DNA of 64,000 nucleotides. It comes from Asparagopsis taxiformis. Taxonomy: Eukaryota; Rhodophyta; Florideophyceae; Bonnemaisoniales; Bonnemaisoniaceae. Positions 3 to 25,228 of this stretch are shown in pieces. Both the position numbers and the translations under genes were made by a program. Position 1 is the first letter of the stretch. Each line of letters starts with the position of its first letter. The notes under the pieces are model-generated. The model saw nothing but the letters and a program-made list of their open reading frames with translations, made no database searches and was not told the origin of the DNA. The stretch covers positions 27,785 through 91,784 of the forward strand of contig JALQPE010002818.1 in assembly GCA_030407315.1 (NCBI GenBank), in the 5' to 3' direction.

Positions 3-3000
3 AAGAATCGCCGACCGAGTAAGGCTGCGCCAGCCTTAAACGTTCAGAACAAACGAGTTCTGATGGTCGCGCCAGTTCGTATCTATGGTCGAGAGATTCG
101 CGCGCTCCTGGATACTGGGGCTATACCCAATATCATCTCTGCTGATCTCGCCCGTCAGTTGTGCCTCCTGCCGAAGCGTACCAAGCAGAGGATTACGGTC
201 GCAGATGGGTCGAGCGCCAACTGCATTGGCCGTGTCAAAGATGTGCCCATAACCTTTGGAAACCTCACAGCTTCCATGGATTTCCTCACCATTGAAAAGG
301 CACCTATCGGCCTCATCATCGGCTTACCGGCCATGGAAGATCTACAGGCTAAACTGGATATTGGGAGTCGAGTCGTTGAGATACAACTCGGCGAAGAATC
401 GGCGCGGATTGGGCTAGAACCCGATAACGGCCTCCACTTCCTTCCTCAGGGTGGTAGTGAAAGCGAAGACTTCACGTCTCTCAGCACCGATGAAGGAGCC
501 TCGACGACTTCTTCAGGCGAAGAAGACGAAGGTACGCTAATTGTCGCCCACGTTGATTTCGCCAAGCCGCAATTAGCGGTCGAAGAGGAGAGCGACCTCT
601 CTGAGACCGAAGAGCATGACAAGCTCATCGAAGAAAAACTCGTGCATCTATCACCCTCGGATAGACGAGTTATATCGGAGTCGTTGAAGGACTACGGAAT
701 CGTAGCTTGGTCCTTTCACGATCTCAGGAAAGCCGACGTCCCTGTTAAACACTCTTTTGAGCTGGAAGACGACACCCCTGTCTACCACCAACCTCGTCGG
801 TTGTCGCCGAAACACAACGAGGTAGTACGATCCGAAATCGATCGCATGCTGGAAGCGGGAATCATCACCCCGGCCTCATCAGCATGGTCCTTCCCGGTGG
901 TCATTGCTACGAAGAAGGACGGGAAACCTCGTTTCTGCGTCGACTACCGCATCCTGAATCGGAAGATCAAACCCGATCGTTGGCCCTTACCCAGGATCGA
1001 AGAGATTTTCGATGAATTGGGAGGAAATTCCCTCTTCACCACTCTCGATCTCTTCTCTGGGTATTGGCAGATTCGAATGGATACCGCTTGCAAGGAGATG
1101 ACGACTTTCGTCACCCGTTACGGTACCTACAAGTTCGAAGTTATGCCGTTTGGACTAATGAATGCCCCGTCCACCTTCCAGAGGATGATGGATGAGATGG
1201 TCAAGGATCTACCATTCGTCCGAGCGTATCTCGACGATGTTGTGGTATTCTCTAAAAACATGGGAGAACACGTTTCCCACCTTCGTATCCTTTTCGAGTC
1301 CCTAAGTCAGAGGGGTTTGAAGCTGAAGGTCGTCAAATGCTTCTTCGCTCAACCTAAAGTCGAGTTGCTTGGTCACATCGTTAGCCACGATGGGGTGTCA
1401 GTAGACCCCGCCAAGATTTCTGCCATTAGAGATGTAGCTCCGCCGCAAACCGCTTCCGAGCTCCGCAGCTTCCTCGGTTTGGCGGGCTACTATCGCCGGT
1501 TCATTAAGGGGTTTGCTGACATCTCGGCTTCTCTATTCCCATATACCTCTTCTGGACGTTCCTTCGAATGGACAGAGGAGATGAATCAAGCCTTCGGGAC
1601 GCTGAAGGAAAAACTAACTTCGGCTCCCGTCCTTTCCTTCCCTGACTTCGATACTCCCTTCTTAGTCGAGACAGATGCCTCCTCCGTATCCGTCGGAGCT
1701 GTACTAGCGCAGAAGAAGGAAGACGGGCGTATTCATCCTATTCAATTCGCGAGTAGGACGATGAATACGGCTGAAAGAAAATATTCGGCATGCGAACGGG
1801 AAGCCCTAGCAGTTATCTTTGCACTGAAGAAATTCCGACTCTACCTTCTGTCCACCCAGCCCTTCAAGTTGATGACGGATCACCAAGCGTTGCAATACGC
1901 ATTCCAGAAGAAAGATATACACGGGCGACTTGCCCGTTGGCTCGACTTCCTCGCGGAATACGACTTCGTCATATCGTTCAGGCCGGGAAAACAGAACTCC
2001 GCTGCAGACTTTCTGTCCCGTCTAGAACAAACCCATACCGCTCCGGGGTCAGGAGAAGATGAGGGCGACCTCGCCCTGCTTGCTATTCCAGAAGCCCTCC
2101 GCATAGAACCTGACCTAGTCACAGTGTTCCAATACTTACGGGGTGGAGCTGAACCCGAAGTAGAGGGCCTAGCTCGACAAAAGGTTCGACGGAGTTCCAA
2201 GGATTTCTTAGTCTGGGAAGACCAGCTCTTTCGCCGCACCGCGTTGGGACCCAAGGTAGTCGCACCGATTCCGCTCCGAATCAAGATCCTGCAAATGTTC
2301 CACGACAACATCGGTCATTGGGACGCTGCCTCGACCCGCCAGTTTATTGTGGAACGTTACTGGTGGCCGCGTATGGGCAAGGACATTCACGACTACGTTC
2401 GGAGTTGTGAGGGGTGTCAGAAGAATAAACCGGTACCCCGCTATCGGACTACCCTGAGTCAGCCGTTGACAGGCCTTTTCCACACGTTTTCCATCGACTT
2501 TGCGGGGCCGCTCCCGCGCACGGCCAAAGGTAACCGATTCCTTCTCATCGCTGTGGAACACCTCACTGGCTGGCCTATCGCCAGGGCCACCGCAGCTAGT
2601 ACCGCGGATGTCGTACTCAATTTCGTGAAGGATGAGATCATCTACTCGTTCGGCCCCCCAACTACCATTGTATCCGACAATGCGGGGTGTTTCACAGCTG
2701 CGACACTCGCGAGTTTCATGAAGAGCAACGGGATCGATTGGAAGACCGTGCTTGAGTACTCCCCCATGTCTAATGGGCGAGCCGAGCGAATGGTAGGGAC
2801 CATCAAGAGGTCCTTAGCCAAAGTTAAAGGCAGGGACTCGGTCGAATGGGACATCCTACTCCCGCACGTGCTCTACGGTTACCGCCGTCGTTGCATGACA
2901 GGCGGCACCTCACCCTTCGAACTGATGTACGGAGTGGTACCAAGGGTAGTCGCCCACGACCCGTCACCGCTTCTGGACCGTCCGCTGGACCCTCAATCCC

Positions 3001-3317
3001 GACTGTTTGAGATGTTAGCTCTCCAGTCGCAACGAGCGAGCAGGGTAGAAATGCATCTACGCAATACCCAAGCTCGAGCTCATCTACCAGAACGTCGGTT
3101 CGAGGTAGGCGACGAGGTCCTTGTGGCGAAAGGGAAAGCTTTCGGAGCGACGAAGTTGTCGTTGTTCGAAACCAAGTGGTACGGACCGTTTAAGGTCATC
3201 CAAGCTAGCCACCCCCGATACCTACTCGCTTCCGACCAAGCGAAGGTATCACGTCGCCCCATCCATGCGAGACGTCTACTTCTCTTCCGTAGGCGTCCAC
3301 TACATCTACTGCATTAA
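3..3317 (+). CDS. pol: Ty3/gypsy Pol polyprotein (PR-RT-RNase H-IN), 5' partial
   Basis: The frame is open from the window edge; the first ATG is at 63, but codons before it read on, so the true start lies upstream. Counting from that ATG: a retropepsin with DTGA near residue 17, reverse transcriptase with the YLDD box near 388, RNase H beginning ETDASS near 535, an integrase H2C2 zinc module near 745-790 (HDNIGH, then CEGCQ), and an integrase core with all three acidic residues (SIDFAG, SDNAG, NGRAE). A GPF module sits near 1045, and no chromodomain follows. An acidic Ser/Glu-rich linker (about 135-200) separates protease and RT. The visible frame has no stop or frameshift, so this copy may be functional. 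Gag is outside the window. It is not the same family as the gypsy fragments at 50-53 kb or 55-62 kb, judging by the protease sequences. Confidence 0.93.
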   Translation, partial: KNRRPSKAAPALNVQNKRVLMVAPVRIYGREIRALLDTGAIPNIISADLARQLCLLPKRTKQRITVADGSSANCIGRVKDVPITFGNLTASMDFLTIEKAPIGLIIGLPAMEDLQAKLDIGSRVVEIQLGEESARIGLEPDNGLHFLPQGGSESEDFTSLSTDEGASTTSSGEEDEGTLIVAHVDFAKPQLAVEEESDLSETEEHDKLIEEKLVHLSPSDRRVISESLKDYGIVAWSFHDLRKADVPVKHSFELEDDTPVYHQPRRLSPKHNEVVRSEIDRMLEAGIITPASSAWSFPVVIATKKDGKPRFCVDYRILNRKIKPDRWPLPRIEEIFDELGGNSLFTTLDLFSGYWQIRMDTACKEMTTFVTRYGTYKFEVMPFGLMNAPSTFQRMMDEMVKDLPFVRAYLDDVVVFSKNMGEHVSHLRILFESLSQRGLKLKVVKCFFAQPKVELLGHIVSHDGVSVDPAKISAIRDVAPPQTASELRSFLGLAGYYRRFIKGFADISASLFPYTSSGRSFEWTEEMNQAFGTLKEKLTSAPVLSFPDFDTPFLVETDASSVSVGAVLAQKKEDGRIHPIQFASRTMNTAERKYSACEREALAVIFALKKFRLYLLSTQPFKLMTDHQALQYAFQKKDIHGRLARWLDFLAEYDFVISFRPGKQNSAADFLSRLEQTHTAPGSGEDEGDLALLAIPEALRIEPDLVTVFQYLRGGAEPEVEGLARQKVRRSSKDFLVWEDQLFRRTALGPKVVAPIPLRIKILQMFHDNIGHWDAASTRQFIVERYWWPRMGKDIHDYVRSCEGCQKNKPVPRYRTTLSQPLTGLFHTFSIDFAGPLPRTAKGNRFLLIAVEHLTGWPIARATAASTADVVLNFVKDEIIYSFGPPTTIVSDNAGCFTAATLASFMKSNGIDWKTVLEYSPMSNGRAERMVGTIKRSLAKVKGRDSVEWDILLPHVLYGYRRRCMTGGTSPFELMYGVVPRVVAHDPSPLLDRPLDPQSRLFEMLALQSQRASRVEMHLRNTQARAHLPERRFEVGDEVLVAKGKAFGATKLSLFETKWYGPFKVIQASHPRYLLASDQAKVSRRPIHARRLLLFRRRPLHLLH

Positions 3318-3483
3318 GCTTCCATTAGGGAAACCCTTCGCTTGCACACTCCCTTTTATGCATAATCCCTTTTTAATCATTCAACCCTTGTCTACGCATT
3401 CATTTCAATTCTAGATCTCTCTACCCATTACTAGCTAGTCTACTCAATACGATTCATTTCCTTCTCTATCAAATCGTTCTGTG

Positions 3484-4944
3484 CTAAGACAACCCCTCAC
3501 CGTCGATCTTCGCTTTGCGAACCTTCTCGCGCTTCCTCATGCGCTGTCGCTTAGCACGCTTCTCCTCTGGATTCGAACCCTCCCGTTGGACGCGTCGAAG
3601 ATCGTTGAAGGAGGAGAAATCCGACGACTTACTGGTGCTACAACATAAGAAGAATGCCCGAGGCTCTAGACTCATCACAAAGGCTTCAGAGGAGTCGTAG
3701 ATGAGACCAGGCCAGGTACGAGAGTCGATACATATGGCGTGTTTCAGGCCATCTCGACTCCAAACCTGCACCACGTATACGTCCGGCTCCCTCGAAAGTT
3801 TCTCCCGTAACCACGCCCATTGCCTAGAGCGCGAATCTGGGGCTCCTAGGTCGAAATGGGGGATCGCCACCCGGGGCAGAGTCACCGTTGAAGGAGCACG
3901 ATCATCGATGGCCTTCGAGACAGAACCAAAGTCCACGACACTAGTATAATAACCTCGAACAAGGCGTTCTTCTTCGTCCCGAGCCAGCTCCCGACGGAAA
4001 AACCTATCGGCCGTGTTAAAATCGCACACGAGAGCGATCCCATTGGCGGCCGCGGCACGCAGGCAGTTGTTGGTGAAGTCCTGCACAGGTACCACCACGC
4101 GGTTCCGAGGAGTCCCCACGAAGAATGGGGGGGCTTCGAGGGAGGGCACCCGAGCCATGGCGACATTGACTCGTTTCTTCTTCCCAGGTTTCTTGTAACA
4201 CCAAGCGTCGATACTGGCTATTAAACTCACCCGCGAGGGTTGACCATTCCCTCTGGTCACAGGAGAGGGGTTATCCTGCTCCTGGAGTGCCGCGTCGCGC
4301 TCCGCCGGTTCGGAGACCTGACGGAAAACCATGGTATACAGATCGATTCGATGGCCGGTTCGCTCCCCTTCGGCGGAGGCATAGAAGCAGCCTTCCAGTT
4401 CGCCGTTCTCACCTCCCTTCGACAACCAGATCTTCTCGATGATCCAATCGGTGTCGTCGGGGCATTCGGCGTACTTCTCGGTGTCACCGTGGGATTCAGT
4501 GAGACCGAGACGACAAGCCATCTCCGCGGTAAGGATGGAGATGGCCGGATCGGAGGCGAATTCGACGATCTGAGGCCCGAAGAGGAACTCTAGTTCCCTG
4601 GCCGTCACTTGGCACGGATCGCGACGATTTCGGCCAAAGTCGACGACGAAACGACCACGGTGGTCGGAGGAGCGGCGGATGTTCTGGACGTCTTCACGTC
4701 CGAACCAACGGAAGAGGTTCTGACGAATTCCCCGATGGGATTTGTCGTCGAAGTTAACCTCGTTGGCCCGCGCGGGGACGGCTTCCCCGGGGCGATAGCG
4801 TACCTCCTGGCCGCCCTCGCGACGGTAGGTGCCAGGAGCCGCGGGAGGGTCTCGTCTGGGAATCCGCGCCGCCCGAGCAGCTAGCTCCTGCCGAGGGGCA
4901 GTCCCCCCAGTCGACTTCTTTGCGGTCTGTTTCGTCTTGGCCAT
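3484..4944 (-). CDS. Histone H3 tail-mimic protein with putative cysteine-peptidase-like domain
   Basis: This 486-residue intact frame lies antisense, 166 bp past the pol stop. Residues 2-29 align without gaps to the histone H3 tail (A1 to S28), with 19 of 28 positions identical by eye. The segment TKQTA, KSTGG, APR and AAR is kept, including the K4, K9, S10 and T11 equivalents. Differences are R2K, R8K, K14T, K18Q, Q19E, T22A, K23R, K27I and S28P. A second H3 signature, RYRPG (H3 40-44), follows at 49-53 after an 8-residue insertion. Beyond that the histone fold is not clearly recognisable. The C-terminal half has NNCLRA (Cys294), KHAICID (His402) and IYDSSE (Asp417), in the order and spacing expected of a papain-like/OTU-like cysteine peptidase; this is a pattern call, not a proven family. 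The last 25 residues are very basic (461-479), like a nuclear localisation signal. A TATA box lies 262 bp upstream. Function is unknown; nuclear chromatin interference is an inference. Confidence 0.75.
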   Translation of the reverse strand: MAKTKQTAKKSTGGTAPRQELAARAARIPRRDPPAAPGTYRREGGQEVRYRPGEAVPARANEVNFDDKSHRGIRQNLFRWFGREDVQNIRRSSDHRGRFVVDFGRNRRDPCQVTARELEFLFGPQIVEFASDPAISILTAEMACRLGLTESHGDTEKYAECPDDTDWIIEKIWLSKGGENGELEGCFYASAEGERTGHRIDLYTMVFRQVSEPAERDAALQEQDNPSPVTRGNGQPSRVSLIASIDAWCYKKPGKKKRVNVAMARVPSLEAPPFFVGTPRNRVVVPVQDFTNNCLRAAAANGIALVCDFNTADRFFRRELARDEEERLVRGYYTSVVDFGSVSKAIDDRAPSTVTLPRVAIPHFDLGAPDSRSRQWAWLREKLSREPDVYVVQVWSRDGLKHAICIDSRTWPGLIYDSSEAFVMSLEPRAFFLCCSTSKSSDFSSFNDLRRVQREGSNPEEKRAKRQRMRKREKVRKAKIDGEGLS

Positions 4945-5205: not shown

Positions 5206-5213
5206 CTTTTATA
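5206..5213 (-). promoter_or_regulatory. TATA box upstream of the H3-tail-mimic gene
   Basis: TATAAAAG on the minus strand, within a GC-rich context, 262 bp before the ATG at 4944. Several CTTAC/GTAAG motifs (5085-5152) lie between it and the start codon. The gene therefore seems to have its own promoter rather than depending on pol transcription. Confidence 0.5.
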
Positions 5214-5252: not shown

Positions 5253-5952
5253 GTGCCTCGGTCTGGCCGGGGGGTCATGTGGAAATGACTTTTACAAGAA
5301 AAATTCTACAGGTAATTTCTACCAGAATTTTAATTTAGGGTTAGGTAGACGTCTGGAAGTTTCCAGTCGTCCAACCGTAGGAAGCTAAATACAGCTCCCA
5401 GCGGTCGGAATAACCTAGAGGGAGATAAGCTAGACTTAGTAAAAATCAATCTATCTACGTTTCTACATTTTACACCGTTTCACTCCCCGTCCCGTGGCCA
5501 CGTACAACAACAACCAAGGCGCAATTGGCAGTTTTATTATCCATTGTTATACTGCAAGGCATTGTTGTCGCCGTTAATGTCCTGTCTGTCATCGTTGCCT
5601 GCCACCCAGAATGCTTCAATCTCTTGTTGTTTGTCCCATATAGTGATGTCTCGTAACTCTCAAACCGGGCACAATCTCGCCCTGGGTGTGTGTACAAACA
5701 CTTTGACAACAAAGCTTGCGCAATTTCGAAAGCGGAGCAACTAAATTAGGTGCCAATCACGCCAAATACTGTATGTGCCATGTATCAGTACTAAATTTAG
5801 CTCTTCTGCTTTAGGTTTTTCTGTCAACTGCCCTACCACCTTTCACGGCATTGCTGGTCGTTCAAATTGCGTCTTTGACGCTCTGTGTGATATGGAACGA
5901 GTGTAACATAGGATGCGCACCTGTCACGGAACAACTTGAAGGCTACTAAACC
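5253..5952. other. No gene seen
   Basis: Short frames only, none with a recognisable domain. Part of the left side may belong to the LTR of element G1. The segment ends at the target-site duplication of the copia element. Confidence 0.5.
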
Positions 5953-5957
5953 ACAGT

Positions 5958-6329
5958 TATGGAAGGTCGTTGGTGCAGGTATGTTTGATCTTGTAAGCGG
6001 TTGAGGCATGAACGGAAGGAGACGATGAGTTTGGGAGCATAGAACAATGGTGATCAAGATGGTTTATGAGAAGAGATGTCGTCTATCCTTAAGGGAGACT
6101 TTCGATAGTCTTAGGATGACTAGCAGTACTATATAGAGATACGCGAAGTGTAAGGACAGTCGGTCAGGCAGAGAAAACAATTGTTTGGCGGGTATTCAGA
6201 CAGTTTCATTCCGGGAAGGTGTACAAACAATTTGGTGGAGTTGAGTAGTGAACCCTTTTGTCCACTAAAACTGTAAGTGGTACACTGTATAACATTTTGA
6301 ATACAATGTTGCACGATCAAACATCAATA
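5958..6329 (-). repeat. 3' LTR of copia element C1
   Basis: 372 bp, identical to 10838-11209 at a constant offset of 4880. It contains a TATATA core at 6130-6135. The internal neighbour is a purine-rich stretch on the minus strand (about 6330-6342, GAAAGGGTAGGAG), the likely polypurine tract. Confidence 0.95.
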
Positions 6330-6355
6330 CTCCTACCCTTTCAGATAAGTAGTGA

Positions 6356-9300
6356 TCACCCAGTGAATTGATTGGAGCATCGAAGTTTGGTATCTACAAA
6401 CTCTATTGGTATCTCTCCAGAATACATAAGAAGCTGAAGGGGGACAGAAAGACTGCTGTTTCTTTTCGTGAGTGGGTCGGCCAGGTTTGATTTTCCCGGT
6501 ACCCATATCATCTTTGAAATCTCCTTAGTCTCAAATTCAAAACGAATCCACGCAACATCTGCTCTGATGGAGCGATCAGTGGCCATCCGACACGTAGAGA
6601 TGGTGTCGAATAGGTCTTTCGAGTCTACAATAATCTGCAGACTAACTTCAGCCTGTAGTAGAGCATTGTATGCTTTGCATAGCATTTTTCCTTCATCAAT
6701 GGCAGCACCAGTAGCAAGAATCTCTGCTGAACCAATTGACTTGACGGGGCGCTTAGACTTTTGAGATAGCCAAGATAGTGTATGAAAAGTCGATCCATGT
6801 TCAAGTCGGCCGAATAGTAGTCCAGTGAAATGTCCAAGCTGGCCATGCTCTGCAGCGCGGCTGGCATCAGCGAATGAAACAATGGAGATGTCATGGTTAT
6901 CTGAACCAGAAGGTCTTTTGTAGCTTATGCGACAACCAAGCTTCTTAAGCCACTTGAGTAAATTGATCTGTGCGATCAACTCATGTACTGTGGCATTAGG
7001 AGCTCTTTGCTGTAAATGGCTGGAGACGAATGCACAGAATGGTGATGAGGCTATTCCAAGCCAGCCAATTGAGCTATTCACAGATTTGAAAGAGGATAAC
7101 TCAACATCATTCAACGGTGACTCGATTTGTTTGCGCCTTATTCGGTCAATGGGGTAGGCATGTAGATTCGATAGTTTCTGATCTCCATGTATAATGATTG
7201 AAAAATCGGATTCTTGAGTGATAGTGAGACCAAAGAAACTGAATGTTCCGGGACCGTAAACGATAGTACCGAGTTTGTAATTCTTGGAGATGCAGCGGAT
7301 AGTATCTTGAATAGTTGGAAGCTCTGCAGCAAACAAAATATCGTCCACAACTTTGACTGCAATTGTCAATAACCTTGACTCTTTCTTTCGATAGAAGAGC
7401 TGTGGAACGTATGCAAGCTGAGAAAATCCTATACTGAAGAGAAATTTGTCGCTGTTCTCTTGCCACTTTGCGTTGGCATTGACGAGTCCATATGTTGCAG
7501 TAAGTAAGAGCCAGTAAAATCGAGATTTGTTCTCACATTCACGCGGAGGAATTACATACACATCTCTCAGTGCCTTCCCAGTCTGTAAGAATGCAGTAGA
7601 GAAGTCTATTTTTGCAATTGGCCAGTTATGGTATGAAGCAAGGGATAGCAGCATTCTTATCCCAACAGGTGGACACGTTGCCGAATCTGTTTTAAGTTGT
7701 TCCTTTCCACTGTCCTTGTTGCCATGAGGGGCTATTCGGGCCTTCACATATCGTGTGCCATCATCAGCTGTTTTCACTTTGTAGATAACATGGCTAGTGA
7801 TTATATTTGCACCCTGCGGTATCTTATGTATTGCAACTTGACGTACAGTGTTCGTAAAACTGTTTTCTTCCTTCATGTAGGAGTTGTGTGTGACATATGA
7901 GGGGAGCCCTTGTGCTTGATTAAGCGTAAACTCTTTTTCTCCAAACATTTTGTAGTATTCTTCAGTGTCTTCTTTCTCTTTGCTCGAGAGTTGAGAACCA
8001 GGTGTAAGTTTGATATCGTGAGATTGAAGTGTTGCAGCCATTCTCCACTTCTCATTTGTGAGGTTGAGTAACTCTTGATCCCCGTCTTCGTATTCGATCT
8101 GATGCTGTGAACCATCTGAGGTGATTTTAGATATTGTGCCACGGTAATATTCCTTGTCTAAAGGCCAATAGACTTCTATTGAATCTCCAATTGATGGCAT
8201 TACATCTTGAGTTGGGTTTGTGTTATGATTGCTTTCATGAGCAAGACTAAAGTCGTCATCATCTATGCGCTTTTGAGTGCTCGGAGGTTCAGGGTCTTTC
8301 ATCTGTGCAGAGGGTTCATCGATGGTACTATCTGCGAAAGAGTGTAGTGATGCATCGACTTCACGATCCAAACAGTCAATTGCCTCTTGAATCTGACGCG
8401 AAATGTTATTGTTTGAAATGTCAAAACGAACATCTTCGACAGCAGCTCTAATTTTGCGACCATTGGATCCAGGCACAGTAACACAACGTGACGATGGGTC
8501 ATAATGCAATACCGTTTTCGGACCAGACGATTTTCCGCGCTTATCATGCTGTAGCTTGATAAAAACTTGGACTACATCACCAGGTTTCACTGGAGTATCG
8601 ACTGTAGCTTTCGAGCGCAAAATCAGAGTGAGTTTTCGTTTGGATGCCAAAGCTTTTTGAGCATCAATAAGTTCTTCAGGTACCACAACAGGGTATGTTC
8701 CTGCAATAACCGGCCTAGTATACCCCTTAGCAAGTTCGTGAGCCGAGAGCTCATCGTTTCCATAGAGGTCATTTGAAATGCGAAATGACTGCTGAACAAG
8801 CAAAAAGTCAGTGGTATATGCAGCATTGCTATTCTCATTTTTCAATCTCAGAAAAATTTCGCGAATAACCCCATGTTTAGACTCAAGTACATTTTTGTTA
8901 TGACGCCTTGGGGGCAATGATCTTGAATTTATACCGTTCATGTTCAGGTACTTGTTGAAAATTTCATTGTCAAACGCAGGATCAAAGATAATTGTGGAAG
9001 GGGTCCAGAAAGGGGTAATCCAATATGTCTCAAATGCTGTAATGGCCTCTCTCATTGTTGTGTTAGGTACTATAGCACCAGCAGAGTATCGAGTTGTGGA
9101 GTCCATTGTGTGAAATACAATTTGGTCACCTAAATAAAAATGATCAATGCAAACATCTTGATTGAATGAACGAGTCAAGCTGCTCAGTGAAACCTTTCTG
9201 GGAAGTTTAGGTTCCGACGTTAGCTTGCAGGATGGACAGTCTCTGAGAGTTTGAATCAAGTACTTATTGACTTCATGACTCCAAAGACCATTGCGCTGCA

Positions 9301-10834
9301 GTAAGACCTTAATGCCCGAGTATGTAGAGTGTCCACAAACGTGTCTGTGTACTTTGTCCACAACAGACTTGGTGAGTTTCCATGGTCGAGTGTTGTCAGC
9401 AGTACCAAAAGATGCTGTTGCACAAAACAGAGAAGATCTCTGTGGAGGTGACAGAGAAGTATTTCGGCAATGAAATACCTCATGCGGAATATGACAATGT
9501 AGATCATTGGTGATAAGGGAGATGGTGGGGTTAATTGAAACATCATCTATCGATGTTTGTAGTGGAGGCAACTTCAGTTTGTCCCCATTCATATGTAGGA
9601 TATCACAATATTTTGTTATGTTTCTCCCAACAACCCATTGTGAGGAGCCTTCGATAATCAAGTGCTTAATATTGATTTGGTATCCCTCATCTGCGATGGC
9701 TGTGAGGAACACTGATCCAATTATTTTGCGGGCCTGACTTGAATGAGCGCCAGTTCCATATTGCCAGTATGGACAGTCTAAAACACACTCCGGTAATGCA
9801 TCAAATTTCCCATTCCACTCAGGACAGATAATTGGCTGAATTATTTTGAACTCTTCAATACCCATGCCACTGTACGGAGCACCATCATCCAACAGAGGAC
9901 CATAGTAATATATAGAGAACTCCTCTATTGACTTGAAGGTAGCCATGCTGAAAGTGACTGTCTTTTTCAATGGCATTTTTGAGGAAGATGATTGCGTGGG
10001 TATAGAAACCGTATTAATTGTCCCATCAGGGTTATGGTCACTGTCCCAGTGTCCAATCTTATGACACTTGCGACAACGAGAGTGAGCCTTCAATTCAGCT
10101 AGTTTCTCTGGGCTTAACTTTTTCTTGCCTCTGAATGGAGGCGTATAATTGGAGTTGAAATTGTTAATTGCTTCCTTTTGAGTAGAAGCAGAATTCTTTT
10201 CACATTGACGTATGACTGTTGCAATTGATTCGTACGAAATAGATTTTAGATATTCATCAGTAGATGACTTGCTTGTGAATTCAGACTCGCGAGGAGCAGA
10301 TGCAGCTAGAACTGATATGCGCTGATTATTATCAACGTTTGAGTTTGCTAATAGCATAAAGGCTACTAATGCATCAGGCAACTTGCATATAATTGACTGT
10401 GAATTGAAGCTTGACACTTGCGCTTCAAAGCGTGATTCAAAATTGGAAAAAGATTCAGTTGATCCTCTCTTAGTATTCAATAGCTTCGTGTATTCCTCGT
10501 AAACACCACTAACGACAGCAAGTGGGTCACGCTTGTATACTGTAGATACAATCGCATCAACCCCAGCTACAGATTGTATCACTGTTGCATCAATCTTTTT
10601 TACAAGATCGCGTGCACGGCCATATAGCTGTGACTGTAGCATAATTCCCCTTAATTCTTCGGGAATCTTGTTCCCGTTATTTTCGGGAAGCATATTGTGG
10701 AAAGCAGTCCATAATGTAACGGCGTTTGCATAGCCTTCTTGATTTCCATTCCCATATGTCCATGGAACTGTCTTGATGTCCCAAGAAAAACGTGGGCGCG
10801 ATGGTGTATCGGAAGCAGTGGAGGTGGAGCCCAT
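6356..10834 (-). CDS. Copia Gag-Pol polyprotein with embedded Tudor-like domain
   Basis: 1492 residues from the ATG at 10834. That start is chosen because it is the first ATG after the 5' LTR; 31 further in-frame codons upstream lie in the LTR itself. Domains in order: Gag; a CCHH-type zinc knuckle (C254, C257, H262, H267); a protease with LLDDGAP near 315; the integrase HHCC zinc region 497-536; an integrase core with D564, D618 and E651 as the best candidates; a Tudor-like segment at about 879-932 (IEVYWP, YYRGT, YEDGD, EKW); reverse transcriptase with KIDFSTAFLQ (about 1075) and catalytic VVDD instead of YVDD (1162-1165); and RNase H (SFADASRAA) ending in LADPLTK. Gag and Pol share one frame, as in plant and fly copia elements. 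No stop or frameshift interrupts it. Confidence 0.93.
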   Translation of the reverse strand: MGSTSTASDTPSRPRFSWDIKTVPWTYGNGNQEGYANAVTLWTAFHNMLPENNGNKIPEELRGIMLQSQLYGRARDLVKKIDATVIQSVAGVDAIVSTVYKRDPLAVVSGVYEEYTKLLNTKRGSTESFSNFESRFEAQVSSFNSQSIICKLPDALVAFMLLANSNVDNNQRISVLAASAPRESEFTSKSSTDEYLKSISYESIATVIRQCEKNSASTQKEAINNFNSNYTPPFRGKKKLSPEKLAELKAHSRCRKCHKIGHWDSDHNPDGTINTVSIPTQSSSSKMPLKKTVTFSMATFKSIEEFSIYYYGPLLDDGAPYSGMGIEEFKIIQPIICPEWNGKFDALPECVLDCPYWQYGTGAHSSQARKIIGSVFLTAIADEGYQINIKHLIIEGSSQWVVGRNITKYCDILHMNGDKLKLPPLQTSIDDVSINPTISLITNDLHCHIPHEVFHCRNTSLSPPQRSSLFCATASFGTADNTRPWKLTKSVVDKVHRHVCGHSTYSGIKVLLQRNGLWSHEVNKYLIQTLRDCPSCKLTSEPKLPRKVSLSSLTRSFNQDVCIDHFYLGDQIVFHTMDSTTRYSAGAIVPNTTMREAITAFETYWITPFWTPSTIIFDPAFDNEIFNKYLNMNGINSRSLPPRRHNKNVLESKHGVIREIFLRLKNENSNAAYTTDFLLVQQSFRISNDLYGNDELSAHELAKGYTRPVIAGTYPVVVPEELIDAQKALASKRKLTLILRSKATVDTPVKPGDVVQVFIKLQHDKRGKSSGPKTVLHYDPSSRCVTVPGSNGRKIRAAVEDVRFDISNNNISRQIQEAIDCLDREVDASLHSFADSTIDEPSAQMKDPEPPSTQKRIDDDDFSLAHESNHNTNPTQDVMPSIGDSIEVYWPLDKEYYRGTISKITSDGSQHQIEYEDGDQELLNLTNEKWRMAATLQSHDIKLTPGSQLSSKEKEDTEEYYKMFGEKEFTLNQAQGLPSYVTHNSYMKEENSFTNTVRQVAIHKIPQGANIITSHVIYKVKTADDGTRYVKARIAPHGNKDSGKEQLKTDSATCPPVGIRMLLSLASYHNWPIAKIDFSTAFLQTGKALRDVYVIPPRECENKSRFYWLLLTATYGLVNANAKWQENSDKFLFSIGFSQLAYVPQLFYRKKESRLLTIAVKVVDDILFAAELPTIQDTIRCISKNYKLGTIVYGPGTFSFFGLTITQESDFSIIIHGDQKLSNLHAYPIDRIRRKQIESPLNDVELSSFKSVNSSIGWLGIASSPFCAFVSSHLQQRAPNATVHELIAQINLLKWLKKLGCRISYKRPSGSDNHDISIVSFADASRAAEHGQLGHFTGLLFGRLEHGSTFHTLSWLSQKSKRPVKSIGSAEILATGAAIDEGKMLCKAYNALLQAEVSLQIIVDSKDLFDTISTCRMATDRSIRADVAWIRFEFETKEISKMIWVPGKSNLADPLTKRNSSLSVPLQLLMYSGEIPIEFVDTKLRCSNQFTG

Positions 10835-10837
10835 AAC
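10826..10837 (-). promoter_or_regulatory. Primer-binding site matching a half initiator-tRNA, overlapping the start codon
   Basis: Directly after the 5' LTR the element reads GTTATGGGCTCC. Its first nine bases are complementary to the anticodon loop end of initiator tRNA-Met, as in Drosophila copia, which primes from the 5' half of that tRNA. The ATG inside it (10834-10832) is the Gag-Pol start codon, that is, the complement of the CAU anticodon. Confidence 0.7.
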
Positions 10838-11209
10838 TATGGAAGGTCGTTGGTGCAGGTATGTTTGATCTTGTAAGCGGTTGAGGCATGAACGGAAGGA
10901 GACGATGAGTTTGGGAGCATAGAACAATGGTGATCAAGATGGTTTATGAGAAGAGATGTCGTCTATCCTTAAGGGAGACTTTCGATAGTCTTAGGATGAC
11001 TAGCAGTACTATATAGAGATACGCGAAGTGTAAGGACAGTCGGTCAGGCAGAGAAAACAATTGTTTGGCGGGTATTCAGACAGTTTCATTCCGGGAAGGT
11101 GTACAAACAATTTGGTGGAGTTGAGTAGTGAACCCTTTTGTCCACTAAAACTGTAAGTGGTACACTGTATAACATTTTGAATACAATGTTGCACGATCAA
11201 ACATCAATA
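10838..11209 (-). repeat. 5' LTR of copia element C1
   Basis: 372 bp, identical to the 3' LTR. A TATATA core lies at 11010-11015. The outer flank is the ACAGT target duplication at 11210-11214. Confidence 0.95.
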
Positions 11210-17908: not shown

Positions 17909-19141
17909 TGGATTGAGGAATTTGGCCGACAGCTGAAGCGCGACGGTGTGAAGCAGGAAGATGGGGATCTTTGAAGAGTAAACTACATTTCTGCAAGAGA
18001 ATATTCTGCTTTGCTGGATATATGTAAATTCAGCGCAGGGTTCGGAAGCATTTGATACTTGTTTGCTGCATTGACGAGCAGAATGGATGGTTTCCATTCT
18101 TAGCCATAGAAATAGACCTTCGACAGCATTATCTGCTTCTTATTTGGTGTGAGATATTGGCGTATAATTGCTGTTCACAGATTACCATTGTTGGCAGCAT
18201 TGCTGCCTTGAGGAAAATATCCAGCTGCGATATGTGCTCTACGTCCTAATATACCATTTCGTTAGGGAACTCCATACAGCGATGCGGGCTCACTTTGAGT
18301 TTGCTGAAATTCACGCTGCCCCGAAGATAACACAGTTGTATGCTGACACAGGGTCGCAAAAGTTGGGAACAACTCCAAATCTCTCGATTCATGTACGCAG
18401 TACGCAATAGTAGTTTTGACTAAGCATGAAGATAAATCGAACTGCGATGCTTCCCGAAATAATTGCTGATCCCACTGCTACTTGTGCTTCATACACACCC
18501 TGACCTTGATGCATGGTGACGGAGAGATCTAACTGATGGAAAGCGGTGGTATTGCCTAGGGCTAGGTGTCTGATTCCTGCAATATATTTATGTATTTCGA
18601 TGATTTATGAGTCAATGAATTGAATGGATACCTGCAGTACGAGCACCGTACCCCGATATACAGTTTGTGGCAAGCTTGTGAGAAGAATGAGTTTTCTGTT
18701 TATCGGCCAGCGATGTTGACGTCGGCGAGTTGAGCAAAATACCAAGCTGTAAGTGGTGTAATTGGTAAGTTGTTCTTCAAAGCTACGGTCCAGTACTGTA
18801 CTAAATTTTAGTCCGTCAACACAGAGCGTTTATCGCTCCTTTAATAGCTACTTCTCGCGATAATCTGATTGCTATGCCAATGCTTCAAGCTCATCCACGA
18901 AGCATAAGTCACATCATCTTTCACTACCAAACTTCGAATTTCGCATTCATGCATTGTCTATGTGTTCCACTAATCCCCGTCTCAAGCAGTGGAATCACGG
19001 AACAAGCCAATAAACTGACTGACGTAGGACGCGATCAACGCCATCCGCCCATAGCTGACATAACTCTTCGTTCATATATTGCCCTGCCAAAGCAAAGACG
19101 GACTATGAAACTACCAACGTACCTTTCCAACGCTACGAAAC
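17909..19141. other. Divergent intergenic region, no gene seen
   Basis: Upstream of both the minus-strand receptor-like gene and the plus-strand hydrolase. A TATA-like CATATATTG sits near 19074-19082, about 60 bp before the hydrolase ATG. Frames here (for example 18874-19281) overlap the hydrolase start in another frame and look spurious. Confidence 0.45.
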
Positions 19142-20338
19142 ATGCCTCGAGACATTCTGATTTTCCTCGTCCTTCTGCCTGCCCTTTCGTTTGCACAATT
19201 TTCTACCGAGACGCGCGTATCCAACCTCCGTTATTTGGAAACTGTTCTTTCCAAAACACGTTTCTCCCAGACATGCCCTGAATATATCTCCGCTTCCAAA
19301 CAAATTTTGTCGCAGAATCTCGATGAAGCAAAGTCGTGCAATTATAACGGACTCTCCGTCGAGCAGTTCAACCGTCTGCGCAAACAGTGTCTACGCAGGT
19401 CAAAACTGGAGAAACTATGCCCAAAGTCCGATGAAGCCTGTGATGAACTTGAACGCGTAAAAGAGGTGTGCAAAAGGATTGGATTTACCAAGTCCACTCG
19501 ACGGTACTGTGCACGCATAGCTCCACTGCAATTCTTCTTCAATGAAATCAGTGCTTTCCAGTGCATGTCTCCGCTTTCCAAATCTGAAGACATGGTGCAA
19601 CTGCTCGAAAAACGTACAAAGATGCTTGCGGAGTCCATCAGAAAGGACGTTGGATTACCGCCACCCGCATACAAACTGTCTGTAGTAGAGCCGTTGAAAG
19701 GTGCAGCTTCAAGCGTCATCATTTTTTTGCACGGCTTCGGTCGATTGACCAATGACTGGGATTCGACCATTGCATTGGCAAGAGCAACGGGGTTTACTAA
19801 TACTCGATTTATAGCGCCACAGGCAAATGTGGCATTCCTTGATGCGCTACAGCGCGAGGGACCCAGTTGGTTCAATATTCCAACTCGCGACATTGCAGGG
19901 CCGATGGCTACCGAGGAGGTCATTGAAGCTGCGGCCAATATTGCCAATTTGATCGACATTCAGCACTATGTGCATGGAGTTGCATATGAAAATATTGCAG
20001 TGGTTGGATTTAGTCAAGGTGCTGCTTTGGCTCTCACGGTTTATGCCAGATATCATGTTGCAGCAGCTGTGTCGTTTTCAGGTTATTTGCCGATTGCTGA
20101 TACGTACCCTGCGGCCCTCTCGCCTGATTCTGCCAAGTCGCCAGTACTGTTATTCCATGGAGATCAGGATACGACCGTTCCAGTCATTGCTGGACGACTG
20201 ACAGACCAGGCGCTTCGCGCTTTCGGTAGGAACGTTGTGTATACTGAGTTTGCGGGTGAGGAACATGGGCTTGAGAAAACATTTAATTTTGCGCGAGACC
20301 GCTCGTTGAAGTTATTGAAAGAGACCATAGCCCACTAA
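19142..20338 (+). CDS. Secreted alpha/beta hydrolase (acyl-thioesterase/carboxylesterase-like) with Cys-rich N-domain, paralog 1
   Basis: 398 residues with a signal peptide of about 18. Residues 40-145 form an N-terminal domain with eight cysteines (45, 66, 83, 93, 100, 110, 123, 141). The C-terminal half is an alpha/beta hydrolase of the phospholipase/carboxylesterase (acyl-protein thioesterase) type: oxyanion region LHGFG (196-200), nucleophile Ser291 in GFSQG, acid Asp343 in HGDQD and His375 in EEHG. The triad is complete, so it should be an active serine esterase on an unknown ester substrate, outside the cell. Known acyl-protein thioesterases lack the signal peptide and the cysteine domain, so this is a distinct secreted subfamily. 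It converges on paralog 2; an AATAAA lies at 20468-20473. Confidence 0.85.
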   Translation: MPRDILIFLVLLPALSFAQFSTETRVSNLRYLETVLSKTRFSQTCPEYISASKQILSQNLDEAKSCNYNGLSVEQFNRLRKQCLRRSKLEKLCPKSDEACDELERVKEVCKRIGFTKSTRRYCARIAPLQFFFNEISAFQCMSPLSKSEDMVQLLEKRTKMLAESIRKDVGLPPPAYKLSVVEPLKGAASSVIIFLHGFGRLTNDWDSTIALARATGFTNTRFIAPQANVAFLDALQREGPSWFNIPTRDIAGPMATEEVIEAAANIANLIDIQHYVHGVAYENIAVVGFSQGAALALTVYARYHVAAAVSFSGYLPIADTYPAALSPDSAKSPVLLFHGDQDTTVPVIAGRLTDQALRAFGRNVVYTEFAGEEHGLEKTFNFARDRSLKLLKETIAH

Positions 20339-20507
20339 TTTTGTCGCAAAATGTCAGCATTGGATGTAGTTCGGATCCATGCATAGTCTAATGACGACAT
20401 TCATTGCTTCACAAACTCATCATGGCATGCGTAAAGCCATGAAGGGCTAGTCACAGCACAACAACACAATAAATATACACACGGGACAGTCGAACAATGC
20501 GATTGCA

Positions 20508-21473
20508 TCATCTATCGATATCATTAGTACCGATAGATTCTTTCAAAACGGCCACCATTCTATCGACAACCACATCAAACGATTTGACGACAAGATGACC
20601 ATCACCCTCAAACTCGACGTAGCTAGTATTTCTGCCATACGAACGCAGCGCCTGCGCACTCAAGCGACCAGCGAGCACTGGCAAAATCTCATCACGATCG
20701 CCGTGCACAAGCAAACTAGGCGCATGTGATTTGGCATTCATGGATGCGGGATAGGATTTGGCCAGTGGCAACCAGCCTGAAATCGACACGCATGCCGCGA
20801 AAGCATGTCGCATATATGCGGTCAGTGCCAATGCGCCGCCCTGACTGAGCCCTGCGACGGCAATTCGTTGCGGGGCAATCCCATGTGCGACGCATTGAAT
20901 GCGCGCAATGTCTGCTACATTCTGTGCGGCGCGGATGATTTCTTCAGCAGCTTCCGGTCCGTCGGGTTGTACAGAGGGAATATCAAACCACGATGGACGG
21001 TCCGGACCGGGGATACCGGAGACGTGGTGAGTATTTGCCTGTGGGAGTAGCAGACGGGTGTGTGGCAACTGTGCGCGCAGAAAGGGTATGTAGGGACCCC
21101 AGTCAGCCGGGGTGCGCCCGAGCCCGTGGAGAAGGATGAGGGCGGAGCGTGGACGGTGGATTGGATCGATGGATTGTAGCGCGTAGGCGGGGGTTGGGAG
21201 ATCAGATGTAACGCGCAGGAGATTGGTGAGTGGGGATAGAAGAGAGGCGAGGTTATTCTGGGGGGCGTTTTGGGTGGATGAATGGGTTGTACGGGCTGGG
21301 ATGTGCGTCAAGGTGTGGAGAACGGAGAGTGAGTTCTTGAGAACTTTGGGAACGGGTTTGGTGAAGGTTTGTTGGAGACGAGAGAGGAGCCGGGCTGGAA
21401 TTGAAGTGAGTGTGGCGGATGATAGGGTTAGTAACATAAGCGTTAGGAGGACAAGGGAGTGGGGTCGATGCAT
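20508..21473 (-). CDS. Secreted alpha/beta hydrolase, paralog 2, lacking the Cys-rich domain
   Basis: 321 residues with a signal peptide (about 1-20). The N-terminal 90 residues are low-complexity (Ser, Thr, Leu, Pro) and carry none of the eight cysteines found in the other three copies. The catalytic domain is intact: LLHGLG (114-119), Ser210 in GLSQG, Asp261 in HGDRD and His293 in GDGH. It is closely related to its neighbours by shared blocks (PSWFDIP, AAQNVADI, ALALTAY, GRLSAQALR, YGRN). It is convergent with paralog 1, with a 169-bp gap. The loss or replacement of the N-domain may mean different localisation or partner binding. Confidence 0.85.
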   Translation of the reverse strand: MHRPHSLVLLTLMLLTLSSATLTSIPARLLSRLQQTFTKPVPKVLKNSLSVLHTLTHIPARTTHSSTQNAPQNNLASLLSPLTNLLRVTSDLPTPAYALQSIDPIHRPRSALILLHGLGRTPADWGPYIPFLRAQLPHTRLLLPQANTHHVSGIPGPDRPSWFDIPSVQPDGPEAAEEIIRAAQNVADIARIQCVAHGIAPQRIAVAGLSQGGALALTAYMRHAFAACVSISGWLPLAKSYPASMNAKSHAPSLLVHGDRDEILPVLAGRLSAQALRSYGRNTSYVEFEGDGHLVVKSFDVVVDRMVAVLKESIGTNDIDR

Positions 21474-21863
21474 GATGGAAGTTTGTTAGGAGTTTGAGCA
21501 TGACGAGCAAGTCGGGCTGGGCTACATGTTAAATATCGCGGGTGGAATGAACTGGTCCTCTCGTTTGTAGCTGGGAACTGTCGTATGAGAGAGCGCGTTC
21601 ATAGCAATGGGGCGGAGGAGATGGAGCGAGACGACTGTGGCTGTGCTTGGCGAGGATGGTCCTTTGATAACTTGCGCAATGATGTTGGTCCTCATGATGA
21701 AGAAGACAGCGAGTCCGGATGGCCAATGGCGCAACGGTGCCGGCTTAGATTGCGCTGCACAATTAAATTTAGGACACGTACGCTGCATGGTTGACACATT
21801 CTTTCGGAATTTCTCTGCAAATTTACGCATCGTTCTCTACAGCAACCAACTTTGATTCGCCGT

Positions 21864-23051
21864 CTAAACGCCAACATTCCTCTTCAAAAATACCAAGCTC
21901 TGCTCCACCACAAAGCCATCGCTTTTCGCAAGTGCATGTTGTTCGCCCTCAAATTCAACAAGCGAAACATTGCGTCCAAACTCACGCATCGCACGCGCAC
22001 CTCTGCGCGCTCTTTCGATCGGCACGACGCTATCCGCCGTTCCATGATGCATCAAGCACGGAGCCGATCGAGACGCACCGGTAACATCCGCCGGATACGT
22101 CTCTAAAATCGGCACAAACGCACGATTGGCCACAACTGCCGCCACACGATGTCTCAAATACACCGTCAATGCCAACGCGCCACCCTGCCCATTCCCAAAC
22201 ACTGCCATTCTATTAAACGGAATCCCATGAACAACATTCTGCAAATTGAGGATATCCGCAATATTACCCGCCGCTCTCACCACCTGATTCACATTACTCT
22301 CATCAAACCACGTCGTAACCTCCACATCCACCTCTTGCACAAATCTCCTCGGCGCCCTAACCGCAATAAACCTGGTGCGATCAAGCCCGGTCGCTCTCGC
22401 CAGATCGATCAACCCATCCCACACGGAAGCCGTCTCTCCGCGATCATGCAGCAACACGACGAGGTTATTCGCGGCGCCTCGGAGCGGATCGACGATCTGC
22501 ACGCCGTAGACGGGCAACGGCAGACGCGCCTCGACGCGAATGTCGTCCGCAACGGCGCCGACGCGGGCGGAAAGCGCGCCAATCTGGGCGAAATCCGGCG
22601 CGCGATCCGGACAGCGCGTCGCGAGTAGCGAGGCAAGATAGGCGCGGAGCGGCGATTTACGCGCGCAGTATCGACGCGTCGCGCGTGTGCGCCCAATGAT
22701 CGCGCATGCTCTACGGATCTCGCGCAACGCTACGCAGGCGCCCAATCGCGCGCAGAGTTGCTCCAATTGCTCGCGATTGCCCAATTGGCATCGGCGCAGA
22801 TAGAGCTCGAAGACTTGCGGCGGTTGGTCGTTGCGTCGACAGGCGCTCGCGACGGTTATTGCACGCGTGATGGCGTCTTGTGACGCTCGTCGATGCTGCG
22901 GACACGTCTCCGCGAATCGCGCGTCCGATAGCATGGATTGCAGGCGGCGGAGCTTCTGGACGCGCGTCGAGAGAGACGGGGGTTCTATCGGTTGGCTGCC
23001 GGTGAGTGGCAGGAGTAGGAGAAGGAAGAGGATTGGTGTTTGGGCGCGCAT
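21864..23051 (-). CDS. Secreted alpha/beta hydrolase paralog 3, predicted inactive (Ser to Gly)
   Basis: 395 residues with a signal peptide (about 1-19). All eight cysteines of the N-domain are kept (50, 71, 88, 100, 106, 116, 129, 147). In the hydrolase domain the nucleophile elbow reads FGNGQGG, with Gly288 where paralogs have the catalytic Ser. The oxyanion motif HGFG has become HDRG (202-205). The acid (Asp340) and His372 remain. With an open frame and intact fold residues it looks like a maintained pseudoenzyme rather than a decayed gene; a binding or regulatory role is an inference. It is in tandem with paralogs 2 and 4 on the minus strand. The coding sequence is notably rich in CG dinucleotides and Arg in its first half. 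Confidence 0.83.
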   Translation of the reverse strand: MRAQTPILFLLLLLPLTGSQPIEPPSLSTRVQKLRRLQSMLSDARFAETCPQHRRASQDAITRAITVASACRRNDQPPQVFELYLRRCQLGNREQLEQLCARLGACVALREIRRACAIIGRTRATRRYCARKSPLRAYLASLLATRCPDRAPDFAQIGALSARVGAVADDIRVEARLPLPVYGVQIVDPLRGAANNLVVLLHDRGETASVWDGLIDLARATGLDRTRFIAVRAPRRFVQEVDVEVTTWFDESNVNQVVRAAGNIADILNLQNVVHGIPFNRMAVFGNGQGGALALTVYLRHRVAAVVANRAFVPILETYPADVTGASRSAPCLMHHGTADSVVPIERARRGARAMREFGRNVSLVEFEGEQHALAKSDGFVVEQSLVFLKRNVGV

Positions 23052-23099
23052 GTTTGGATGGATGGATGGATTGGTTTTGTTGTGTGTGGGGGGTTGATG

Positions 23100-23924
23100 A
23101 TGGGGCGTTTGGCATTGCCGAGTTGGTTTGGGTGTATGTATAGAAGAAGGTTATAATGTGCTTTGGAAGCAATTGAACGTGAGTGTTTGGATTTATATCG
23201 TTTGATATATCGACGTTGAGAATAGTTATGTTGCTTCTAACTTGGTTACTCTCCCTGATCATGTTGTTTAGGAGGTTGGATGTTTCCAAATCGTAGTTCT
23301 GCAAACATTTGAAAAATTGGTTTTCTGTCGATGGTAACTTGGGACAGCTGTCCGGGTTCCAAGGTCCTGAGATAGTTGAGTGACACGTCTTTTGCGAGAA
23401 CTGGTCCAATAGCAGAGCTGCATTGAACATCATTCCAGAATAAACTGTCAAAGTAGGGCCCAGTGTTGTAAATCGTCGGATAATAATCTGTCTCAGGCCC
23501 GAACACGTGTCAATGTTCCTCGTGAGACGAACACCGGCAGTGTTGGTGCCATTCAAACCCACACGCACTGTTCTATGAACACGAGACGGATTTCTTTCTC
23601 CGTAGAAGATAGAGAGCGCCTTCAAGCCTCGTTGCTCATGTTGACGGTGCACTGGCAATTCACCGCCCCTGTACCTTTCAATATGTTTTTATTCCTTTGC
23701 TATCAACTACAACAATGCGCGATGTATCGGGACCCCAGAGCTCAAATAATGATTTGCAGTCATGGAGTGTGTCGGTGGGTTACGAGCATTTAACATATGA
23801 ATTTAGCACTCGACTTGGACAGCTTTCAATTGGATCAGTCTAGCAACAACCGTGGGACAGATGTCCTGTCCAAAACCCCATTCCACATCAATATGACGTG
23901 GCCCAAATTCAATGCACTATTCCA
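23100..23924. other. Intergenic region between paralogs 3 and 4, no confident gene
   Basis: A TATA-like TCTATACATA (minus, near 23134-23143) may serve paralog 3. Minus-strand frames at about 23200-23650 read plausibly as protein in two different phases but match nothing I recognise, so they are left unannotated. Confidence 0.4.
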
Positions 23925-25133
23925 TTACACAATCGTTTGTTTCATAAACTGAATCGTCTTGTCCACGGCGAAATCAAACACCGGCCTCAAGTTATGCCCA
24001 ACCCCTTCAAACTCTGTATACGTGACACTGCGACCCAACGCCAACAACGCCTGCTCGGTAAGCCTGCCCACCTCAACCGGGATGATGACATCCGCGTCAC
24101 CATGGAACAACAGCGCCGGAGCCTGCGCCGACTCGTTGCTCAGCGCCTCCGGATACGTATCGACAATCGGTACATAGGTGGAATATCCTGAAACAGCTCC
24201 AATAGCATGTCTCAGATACACCGTCAGTGCCAATGCACCACCTTGACTAAACCCGAACACACCCATCTTCTCATACGCAATCCCATGCACCACATGTTGC
24301 ACATCCAGAATATCGCGGATGTTCTGTGCCGCTGCAATAATCTCATCATTCGCCTGTGGAGCATCAACATCACTCGAGAACACATTAAACCAACTCGGAC
24401 CAACTTGACCAAATACATCCAATCTCGCCACAGGCGCTTGCGGAATAATAAACCGCGTCCGACGGAATCCACTCGCTCTCATCAAATCCACAGTCTCATC
24501 CCAGTCCGAAATCGAGCCCGAAAAGCCGTGCAACAACACCATCAAACTAGTCGCCGGCCCGACAATCGGTTCGACGACGCGCAGTTCATACGCCGGTTTC
24601 GGGAGCGCTGCACTGATTCGGCGACGATCGGCGAGTCTAGCGGCGCGTCGCTGCAATTGCGCGACGGTCTGTTCGGACGGCACGTCGGTCGGGCATTGCA
24701 ATCTGTCGTTGATTCGAGTGAAACTCTCCAGGGGTTTGATACGCGCACAGAAGCGACGTGTGTCGCGTGTGAAGCCGATCATCGCGCAGATTTCACGGAC
24801 GTGTCGCAATTGCGCACAGACGGATTCGGAACGCATTAGCGCGCACGACATTTGCAGACGGCGTCGACGACGACATTGCGTGCGGAGACGGCTGAATTGC
24901 TCGAAGGATAGGTCGTGGTAGACGCAGGAGCGCGCCGATTGCAGACGGCGCGATAGAATGGCCTGTGAGGCAGCCTTGAACGCCGGACAGGTGCGCGCGA
25001 AGAGCGCGCGCGAGAGTTGGCGCTCGACGCTGGATAGTAGTGTTGGGGCGGCGGGTGTGTGCTGTTGTGAGAGCGCGGTTTGGACCAGGAGTAGGAGAAG
25101 GAGGAGCGCTGGGATGCGGTTGGGTCGACGCAT
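23925..25133 (-). CDS. Secreted alpha/beta hydrolase with Cys-rich N-domain, paralog 4
   Basis: 402 residues from the ATG at 25133. The frame stays open 109 codons further upstream, but this Met begins a strong signal peptide (a poly-Leu core) and lies 87-92 bp after a TATATA. Eight cysteines (49, 70, 87, 97, 106, 116, 129, 147) match paralogs 1 and 3. The catalytic set is complete: LLHGFS (200-205), Ser296 in GFSQG, Asp348 in HGDAD and His380 in GVGH. Expected to be an extracellular serine esterase. Four copies within 6 kb, one on the plus and three on the minus strand, point to local duplication with divergence. Confidence 0.86.
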   Translation of the reverse strand: MRRPNRIPALLLLLLLVQTALSQQHTPAAPTLLSSVERQLSRALFARTCPAFKAASQAILSRRLQSARSCVYHDLSFEQFSRLRTQCRRRRRLQMSCALMRSESVCAQLRHVREICAMIGFTRDTRRFCARIKPLESFTRINDRLQCPTDVPSEQTVAQLQRRAARLADRRRISAALPKPAYELRVVEPIVGPATSLMVLLHGFSGSISDWDETVDLMRASGFRRTRFIIPQAPVARLDVFGQVGPSWFNVFSSDVDAPQANDEIIAAAQNIRDILDVQHVVHGIAYEKMGVFGFSQGGALALTVYLRHAIGAVSGYSTYVPIVDTYPEALSNESAQAPALLFHGDADVIIPVEVGRLTEQALLALGRSVTYTEFEGVGHNLRPVFDFAVDKTIQFMKQTIV

Positions 25134-25219
25134 GGTGATACTGGTGCGCGGTAGGAATGGATGGGAGCGTGAGGGGTGGGAGGTTTGTGAATGAGGTTGG
25201 GATGATGTACGCTCGAGGG

Positions 25220-25225: not shown

Positions 25226-25228
25226 GGG

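Follow-up and report, generated by a model that had tools for sequence, protein, structure and literature searches.

An antisense ORF inside a gypsy element

The window, by which we mean the whole 64,000-nucleotide stretch of DNA analysed, opens within a gypsy pol (3..3317, forward strand; protease, RT, RNase H and integrase) that is open and extends upstream beyond the window edge, with Pfam domains at 3–3314 in the order aspartyl protease–RT–RNase H–integrase, as in Ty3/gypsy elements. Further downstream lies a 232-bp 3′ LTR (5278..5509, forward strand) with TG..CA ends, 100% identical to the 5′ LTR at 6267–6498 of locus L031, followed by an ACAAC target-site duplication (5510..5514, forward strand) that is matched 5′ of the 5′ LTR. 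The host gypsy element is recently inserted and intact-looking. In the interval between, on the opposite strand, is an open reading frame of 486 aa (3484..4944, reverse strand, as are all features assigned to it below), convergent with pol (3484 versus 3317). Given the identical TG..CA LTRs, ACAAC on both outer sides and an open pol, we assign it as an antisense accessory ORF (aORF) between pol and the 3′ LTR. The initial annotation had described a transposon-linked gene lying antisense just behind a gypsy pol; the orientation and the linkage stand, the latter supported by the LTRs, the target-site duplication and many genome copies, but the gene actually lies inside the element. Its position relative to the LTR is read from the window copy only; at L032, a locus of the second subfamily described below, pol is again antisense to and downstream of aORF.

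Two other retroelements occur in the same window. A gypsy pol at 57545–61189 (forward strand) has a C-terminal chromodomain (Pfam E = 2.4e-19), and some thirty rows of a chromodomain search of the genome score the same as this one. A copia-type element at 6356–10933 (reverse strand) adjoins the gypsy element; it carries an RVT_2 domain, repeats of 372 bp at 5958–6329 and 10838–11209 that are 100% identical, and a weak Tudor-like match under the curated cut-off.

The aORF protein begins MAKTKQTAKKSTGGTAPRQELAARAARIP. Its residues 1–28 (4861..4944) are a mimic of the histone H3 tail, with 19 of 27 positions identical to H3 residues 1–27 in an ungapped alignment. When PDB chains were searched with phmmer, the best match was histone H3 (E = 2.7e-7, aligned from residue 1) and the best 60 rows were histone H3 chains only. 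These results confirm what had been read from the letters by the first annotator, a 486-residue frame with 19 ungapped H3-tail matches. The H3-like RYRPG noticed at the same time is indeed present at residues 49–53 (4786..4800), inside the H3 alignment and similar to H3 residues 40–44, but gives weak support because it is missing from subfamily 2 and from two of the database relatives introduced below, P0003 and P0004.

A Pfam scan of the aORF protein found no family at E ≤ 1. No histone fold (PF00125) was found behind the tail, and with no Pfam histone match in the protein we ruled out a host histone gene or variant. The long body, initially called unrelated to H3, thus has no histone match in Pfam but does hold another domain, a predicted papain-like cysteine hydrolase at residues 284–455. 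A chromo- or chromoshadow-like domain suspected by eye at residues 76–160 was dropped, as a PDB sequence search with a four-sequence profile of that region gave nothing relevant (two matches up to E = 10, the better at 0.89). The Met-Ala start suggests that removal of Met would leave a free N-terminal Ala. At the other end, a basic stretch (residues 462–479, 3508..3561) is a presumed nuclear localisation signal, and the C-termini of P0003, P0004 and P0005 are likewise basic.

Copies and distant relatives keep the H3-like start

Searching the genome of origin (141 Mb, with phycobiliprotein genes) with the aORF protein returned at least 93 related stretches from the 88 of 102 candidates that were scored, where one copy may yield several stretches: 44 of the 93 start at residue 1, and among the rest are many that cover later parts of these copies. 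Six copies, that of the window included, are identical in protein, and others range down to about 70% identity. A second group of copies, subfamily 2, is about 38–41% identical to the window protein and reads MARTNQTAKRSTGGRAPRKDLAAAAARR. Of the 41 aORF loci fetched, 37 have the tail motif by a loose pattern, which admits L009 (frame broken directly past the motif) and L015 (Met lost), and 35 have it by a strict one; L060–L069, repeat cuts of places already fetched, were left out of the 41. Two loci without the motif, L030 and L040, had been fetched for matches beginning at residues 194 and 81, respectively, and the tails of the other two, L024 and L035, have decayed. We also noted that in L009, L017 and L019 the aORF frame shifts within or soon past the H3-like tail, leaving tail and body in different frames.

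Relatives were then sought among 5.8 billion proteins. A first search found P0002 alone (94% identical, on a 2295-base ENA contig), a profile search added the ENA proteins P0003 (E = 5e-28) and P0004 (E = 2.6e-4), and a profile of the body only found P0005, a protein of 487 aa from Chondrus crispus that is 34% identical over nearly its whole length. P0005 begins MARTRQTARASTGVKVPHRVIATKAAR, though the profile that found it held no tail. About 8000 candidates were scored per protein search, and the relatives found are a lower bound. Identity to the window protein is about 39% for subfamily 2, 28% for P0003 and 25% for P0004; all of these and P0005 begin H3-like, with 15–21 of 27 identities to H3 (21 for P0003, 15 for P0004 and 18 for P0005). 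The link of P0004 to the family consists of the profile match and an alignment, later E values not being independent, with P0004 in the profile. As queries in the own-genome search, the Chondrus protein P0005 gave at best about 38% over long stretches and P0004 gave no match. The phycobiliprotein genes and the Chondrus relative point to a red alga as host, and the low identity of the P0005 matches sets it apart from Chondrus. Single-protein scans for viral relatives returned one weak match for P0003 (L074, 39 residues, 43% identity) and none for P0004.

The initial annotation had asked whether other copies lack the ORF or its H3-like start; copies keep both. A chance fusion in one copy is ruled out by the many tailed copies, the relatives in other lineages and the conservation of the tail. 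The H3-like sequence at the aORF N-terminus is thus beyond chance and conserved.

Upstream of the gene, the TATA box already pointed out is real: TATAAAA, the presumed aORF promoter element, lies at 5207..5213, read 5213–5207 on the reverse strand, outside the LTR and 269 nt upstream of the ATG. Counted from 28 nt past this site, the H3-like Met is the first ATG in the window copy. We scanned 30 subfamily-1 loci, among them L005, which is the window copy itself. Four (L015, L022, L027 and L030) have no readable start motif, and 25 of the 26 others have a TATA-like site, L021 being the exception; in the same 25, the H3-like ATG is the sole ATG from 28 nt past the site to the start, with the count in L024 begun at its second TATA-like site (−180). 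In subfamily 2, CATAAAG, a pattern picked after seeing L032 and L033, is present in two of seven loci scanned, four of which have just 154–210 bases upstream. These sites suggest that aORF may be transcribed from an internal promoter of its own.

Conservation of the H3-like tail

When sliding windows of 26 columns (382 in all) were compared across five lineages, the tail ranked first: the top two start at residues 1 and 2, with mean pairwise identities of 0.58 and 0.56, and the best with a start past residue 40 has 0.43. For eight of the ten lineage pairs no body window equals the identity of the tail; body windows reach it in 73 of 421 cases for P0001–P0005 and in 14 of 402 for P0005–L033. 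Common to all five lineages, in H3 numbering, are Ala1, Thr3, Gln5, Thr6, Ala7, Ser10, Thr11 and Gly12. Position 4 is K, R or N and position 9 is K, A or R, with N and R in subfamily 2. With K4 and K9 so variable, the tail is unlikely to be simply a decoy for methylation, and the loss of these lysines in some lineages argues for recognition of other tail residues.

That the shared residues are not the methylated lysines would also suit a different role, in which the partners of the tail are histone chaperones, importins or proteins of mitotic chromatin. These would bring the protein, perhaps with an integration complex, to chromatin or keep it there, and the hydrolase would do something unrelated. 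A Pfam search found no chromodomain at E = 0.01 or better in the pol of the host element, unlike the gypsy element at 57545–61189, which points the same way. Against such a tether, the strongly basic C-terminus is already a likely nuclear signal and aORF is a separate antisense gene outside the integrase, and we regard this role as unlikely.

We next compared synonymous sites with those of host H3 genes, which have the canonical tail. Among the 19 identical residues of the window tail, 14 differ synonymously from L043/L044 and 18 from L045, and 12 of the 18 residues identical between the tails of subfamilies 1 and 2 differ synonymously. Saturation against H3 alone cannot date the capture, because the two kinds of host H3 gene likewise differ from each other at 15 of 27 tail codons. 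Between the subfamilies, where dS is saturated, pN is 0.19–0.22 in the tail versus 0.43–0.44 overall (for the single pair of window and L033, Fisher p = 4e-4 on rounded counts). Because amino acids were kept while synonymous sites came near saturation, we take the tail to be old and retained. A recent capture from host H3, the other outcome that had been set against the initial annotation, is ruled out by synonymous sites near saturation both against host H3 and between subfamilies, and the tail is the top-conserved segment over five lineages.

Ratios of dN/dS for the whole ORF are 0.15–0.22 for the window copy against L010–L014. Three wider subfamily-2 pairs have 0.15–0.17, and 0.10–0.13 when the tail is taken by itself. 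Closer pairs are higher (0.31 for L011–L013, 0.33 for window–L008, 0.41 for L033–L032 and 0.55 for L033–L037). Tail-only ratios within subfamily 1 stem from 0–3 changes of a kind and are 0.25–0.38 where defined and above zero; that for L033–L032 is 0.85, on 3 changes. Together, these comparisons support an H3-tail resemblance that is conserved and under selection.

The same data bear on two explanations that give the tail, or the whole protein, little to do. The tail could be left from an old capture of the start of an H3 gene and serve only as start codon and leader; it does resemble the H3 start, and our reading of the host H3 gene L045 stops directly past RYRPG, as at an intron. With amino acids kept as synonymous sites saturate, and with the tail the most conserved part over five lineages, we find this very improbable. 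Alternatively, the coding appearance could be a by-product of an antisense or regulatory RNA function, as aORF is antisense to the genomic RNA of the element, where, according to the accessible part of a review, antisense transcripts could regulate (PMC7264820). This is barely credible given dN/dS well under 1 over 377–485 codons between diverged copies and the conserved Cys-His-Asp residues described next.

A predicted papain-like hydrolase domain

Structure prediction has residues 284–455 (3580..4095) adopting a papain-like fold, that of a cysteine hydrolase. The presumed nucleophile, Cys294 (4063..4065), is present in all rows of alignment A6 except L033, which has Phe, and the presumed catalytic residues His402 (3739..3741) and Asp417 (3694..3696) are invariant in that alignment. 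The Cys-His-Asp order is as in papain-like cysteine peptidases and is kept in tail-less relatives too. An AF2 model of the whole protein was useless (pLDDT 36). No Pfam peptidase match was found in the aORF protein, and a search of predicted viral structures gave no match at E ≤ 0.001.

Foldseek against the PDB likewise gave no match at E ≤ 0.001; its first match was a Josephin-type ubiquitin clippase, and other deubiquitinases were also listed. This order of matches would fit a deubiquitinase-like or other isopeptidase that is recruited to complexes reading H3 and does not cut them as a protease would. The Foldseek E value is just 0.0098, however, and VIA-align ranks staphopains and C39 peptidase domains higher, by small differences in Z; we consider an isopeptidase quite improbable. 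Staphopain, C39 peptidase domains and AvrPphB resemble the aORF domain in predicted fold and in Cys-His-Asp order, but differ from it in sequence, with 4–12% identity in the alignments and no Pfam peptidase match on the side of aORF.

Two tail-less relatives, L070 and L071, keep the C-terminal hydrolase domain (19–20% identical), and the H3-like motif is absent from every frame of 1.5 kb in each; these are the two loci read among 17 such rows. Because they carry the domain, the core activity of the putative hydrolase would not need the tail. Six of the 17 low-identity hydrolase-domain rows share one score and three another, as in repeated families. The presence of tail and predicted cysteine hydrolase in one chain could mean that the enzyme acts on histone H3, with the H3-like N-terminus serving as a built-in propeptide or inhibitor that can be cleaved. 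Against this pseudo-substrate role, about 250 residues lie between tail and domain, and the two relatives have the domain with no tail, which makes it improbable in our judgement.

A possible route to relief from silencing

The reading that we favour, and to which we give somewhat less than an even chance, is that the tail docks on a host protein recognising the H3 tail, either competing with H3 or bringing the hydrolase there, and that silencing is relieved as a result. That the tail engages silencing readers, writers or erasers, as initially proposed, is plausible, although the methylatable lysines are not its best-kept residues and relatives lacking it exist. In this reading aORF is an accessory gene conserved in a red-algal Ty3/gypsy family and would be expressed in antisense, probably from its internal promoter. 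With Met removed, the protein would start with a free Ala that leads into the H3-like tail, and the basic C-terminus would take it into the nucleus. There the tail could act as bait, docking on a host reader, modifier or eraser of the H3 N-terminus as its binding partner. Once docked, it might compete with real H3 or deliver the papain-like hydrolase, which, if active, would cut either a factor of the silencing machinery or a chromatin protein nearby, and the element would gain relief from chromatin silencing. In a more specific form, 'bait and blade', the target is a silencing factor of the host that reads H3: the tail mimic would catch it, and the papain-like hydrolase in the same chain would destroy it. 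This we hold to be possible, if rather doubtful.

Candidate host factors were sought in the genome. Of 1826 chromodomain candidates, 150 were scored, and many of the matches lie in frames as long as those of retroelements. For SET, where 150 of 1661 were scored, about ten strong matches stand beside a large set of repeated ones. Searches for Pre-SET and chromo-shadow domains gave no matches in the genome, but no control gave one either.

Relation to known systems

Maize Grande (gene23), rice RIRE2 and Silene Retand are gypsy elements with an additional ORF antisense between pol and the 3′ LTR, according to the accessible parts of two papers; Boty is the named non-plant case, and such ORFs of plant and fungal LTR elements are described there with function unknown (PMC7264820, PMC11963269). 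As far as the accessible text of the first of these goes, an upstream promoter drives gene23 of Grande and its product is nuclear; this 2020 review calls it unknown what antisense accessory ORFs do in plant LTR elements (PMC7264820). From what is described there, aORF resembles the Grande, RIRE2 and Retand ORFs in position, antisense orientation and presence in many copies; Retand ORFs mostly have a TRP28 domain, whereas the red-algal aORF combines an H3 tail with a domain predicted to be papain-like. The word 'histone' is absent from the main texts of both papers as accessible to us (PMC7264820, PMC11963269), and the accessible text of a paper on retrotransposon accessory domains contains neither 'histone' nor 'papain' (PMC6338049).

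Mimicry of the H3 tail is described, in the accessible part of one source, for influenza NS1 and SARS-CoV-2 ORF8, together with mimicry by the hepatitis delta antigen (PMC10208167). As far as that account goes, these mimics share with aORF a resemblance to the N-terminal tail of H3, and in aORF, too, it would act against chromatin factors of the host or through them. The H3 mimics of influenza NS1 and SARS-CoV-2 ORF8 are short internal or C-terminal motifs. Unlike these viral mimics, aORF has about 27 N-terminal residues, kept over deep divergence, in a retrotransposon, and joined to a predicted hydrolase.

Host proteins offer a further comparison, as SNAG-domain and other host H3 mimics use an N-terminal H3-like peptide to recruit H3-tail enzymes or readers; SNAG resembles H3 weakly, and such mimics are host proteins, not transposon products. 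VANC of Arabidopsis VANDAL21 is a transposon-encoded extra protein that relieves silencing, and to our knowledge it has neither an H3 tail nor a papain-like domain. No transposon-encoded histone mimic was among the titles listed in our searches of open-access literature. The parts of aORF are thus of known kinds, and their combination is new as far as that literature goes.

By pairing a predicted hydrolase with an H3 tail that is conserved, aORF gives a testable clue about antisense accessory ORFs. If the favoured reading is true, histone mimicry against chromatin silencing evolves in transposons as it does in viruses, and silencing factors of red algae could be fished out with the tail as a hook. 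If the hydrolase also destroys the captured factor, aORF would be a weapon against silencing that red-algal retroelements have kept through deep divergence.

Other observations

Among the 150 SET matches scored in the genome, about 140 have weak and nearly equal scores, which suggests a large repeated family; L075 alone was read. This locus (G000:C348) encodes at 1362–4001 (reverse strand) one chain with a DNA N6/N4-methylase domain (Pfam E = 1.7e-15) and a SET domain (7e-7). By eye, an ORF at 48534–49724 of the window (forward strand) resembles an N-terminal fragment of this methylase–SET protein. It would be notable for a mobile element to carry both a DNA methylase and a domain like that of histone methyltransferases. 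Elsewhere in the window, at 19109–25466, the translations of four clustered ORFs resemble, again by eye, related esterase-type proteins.
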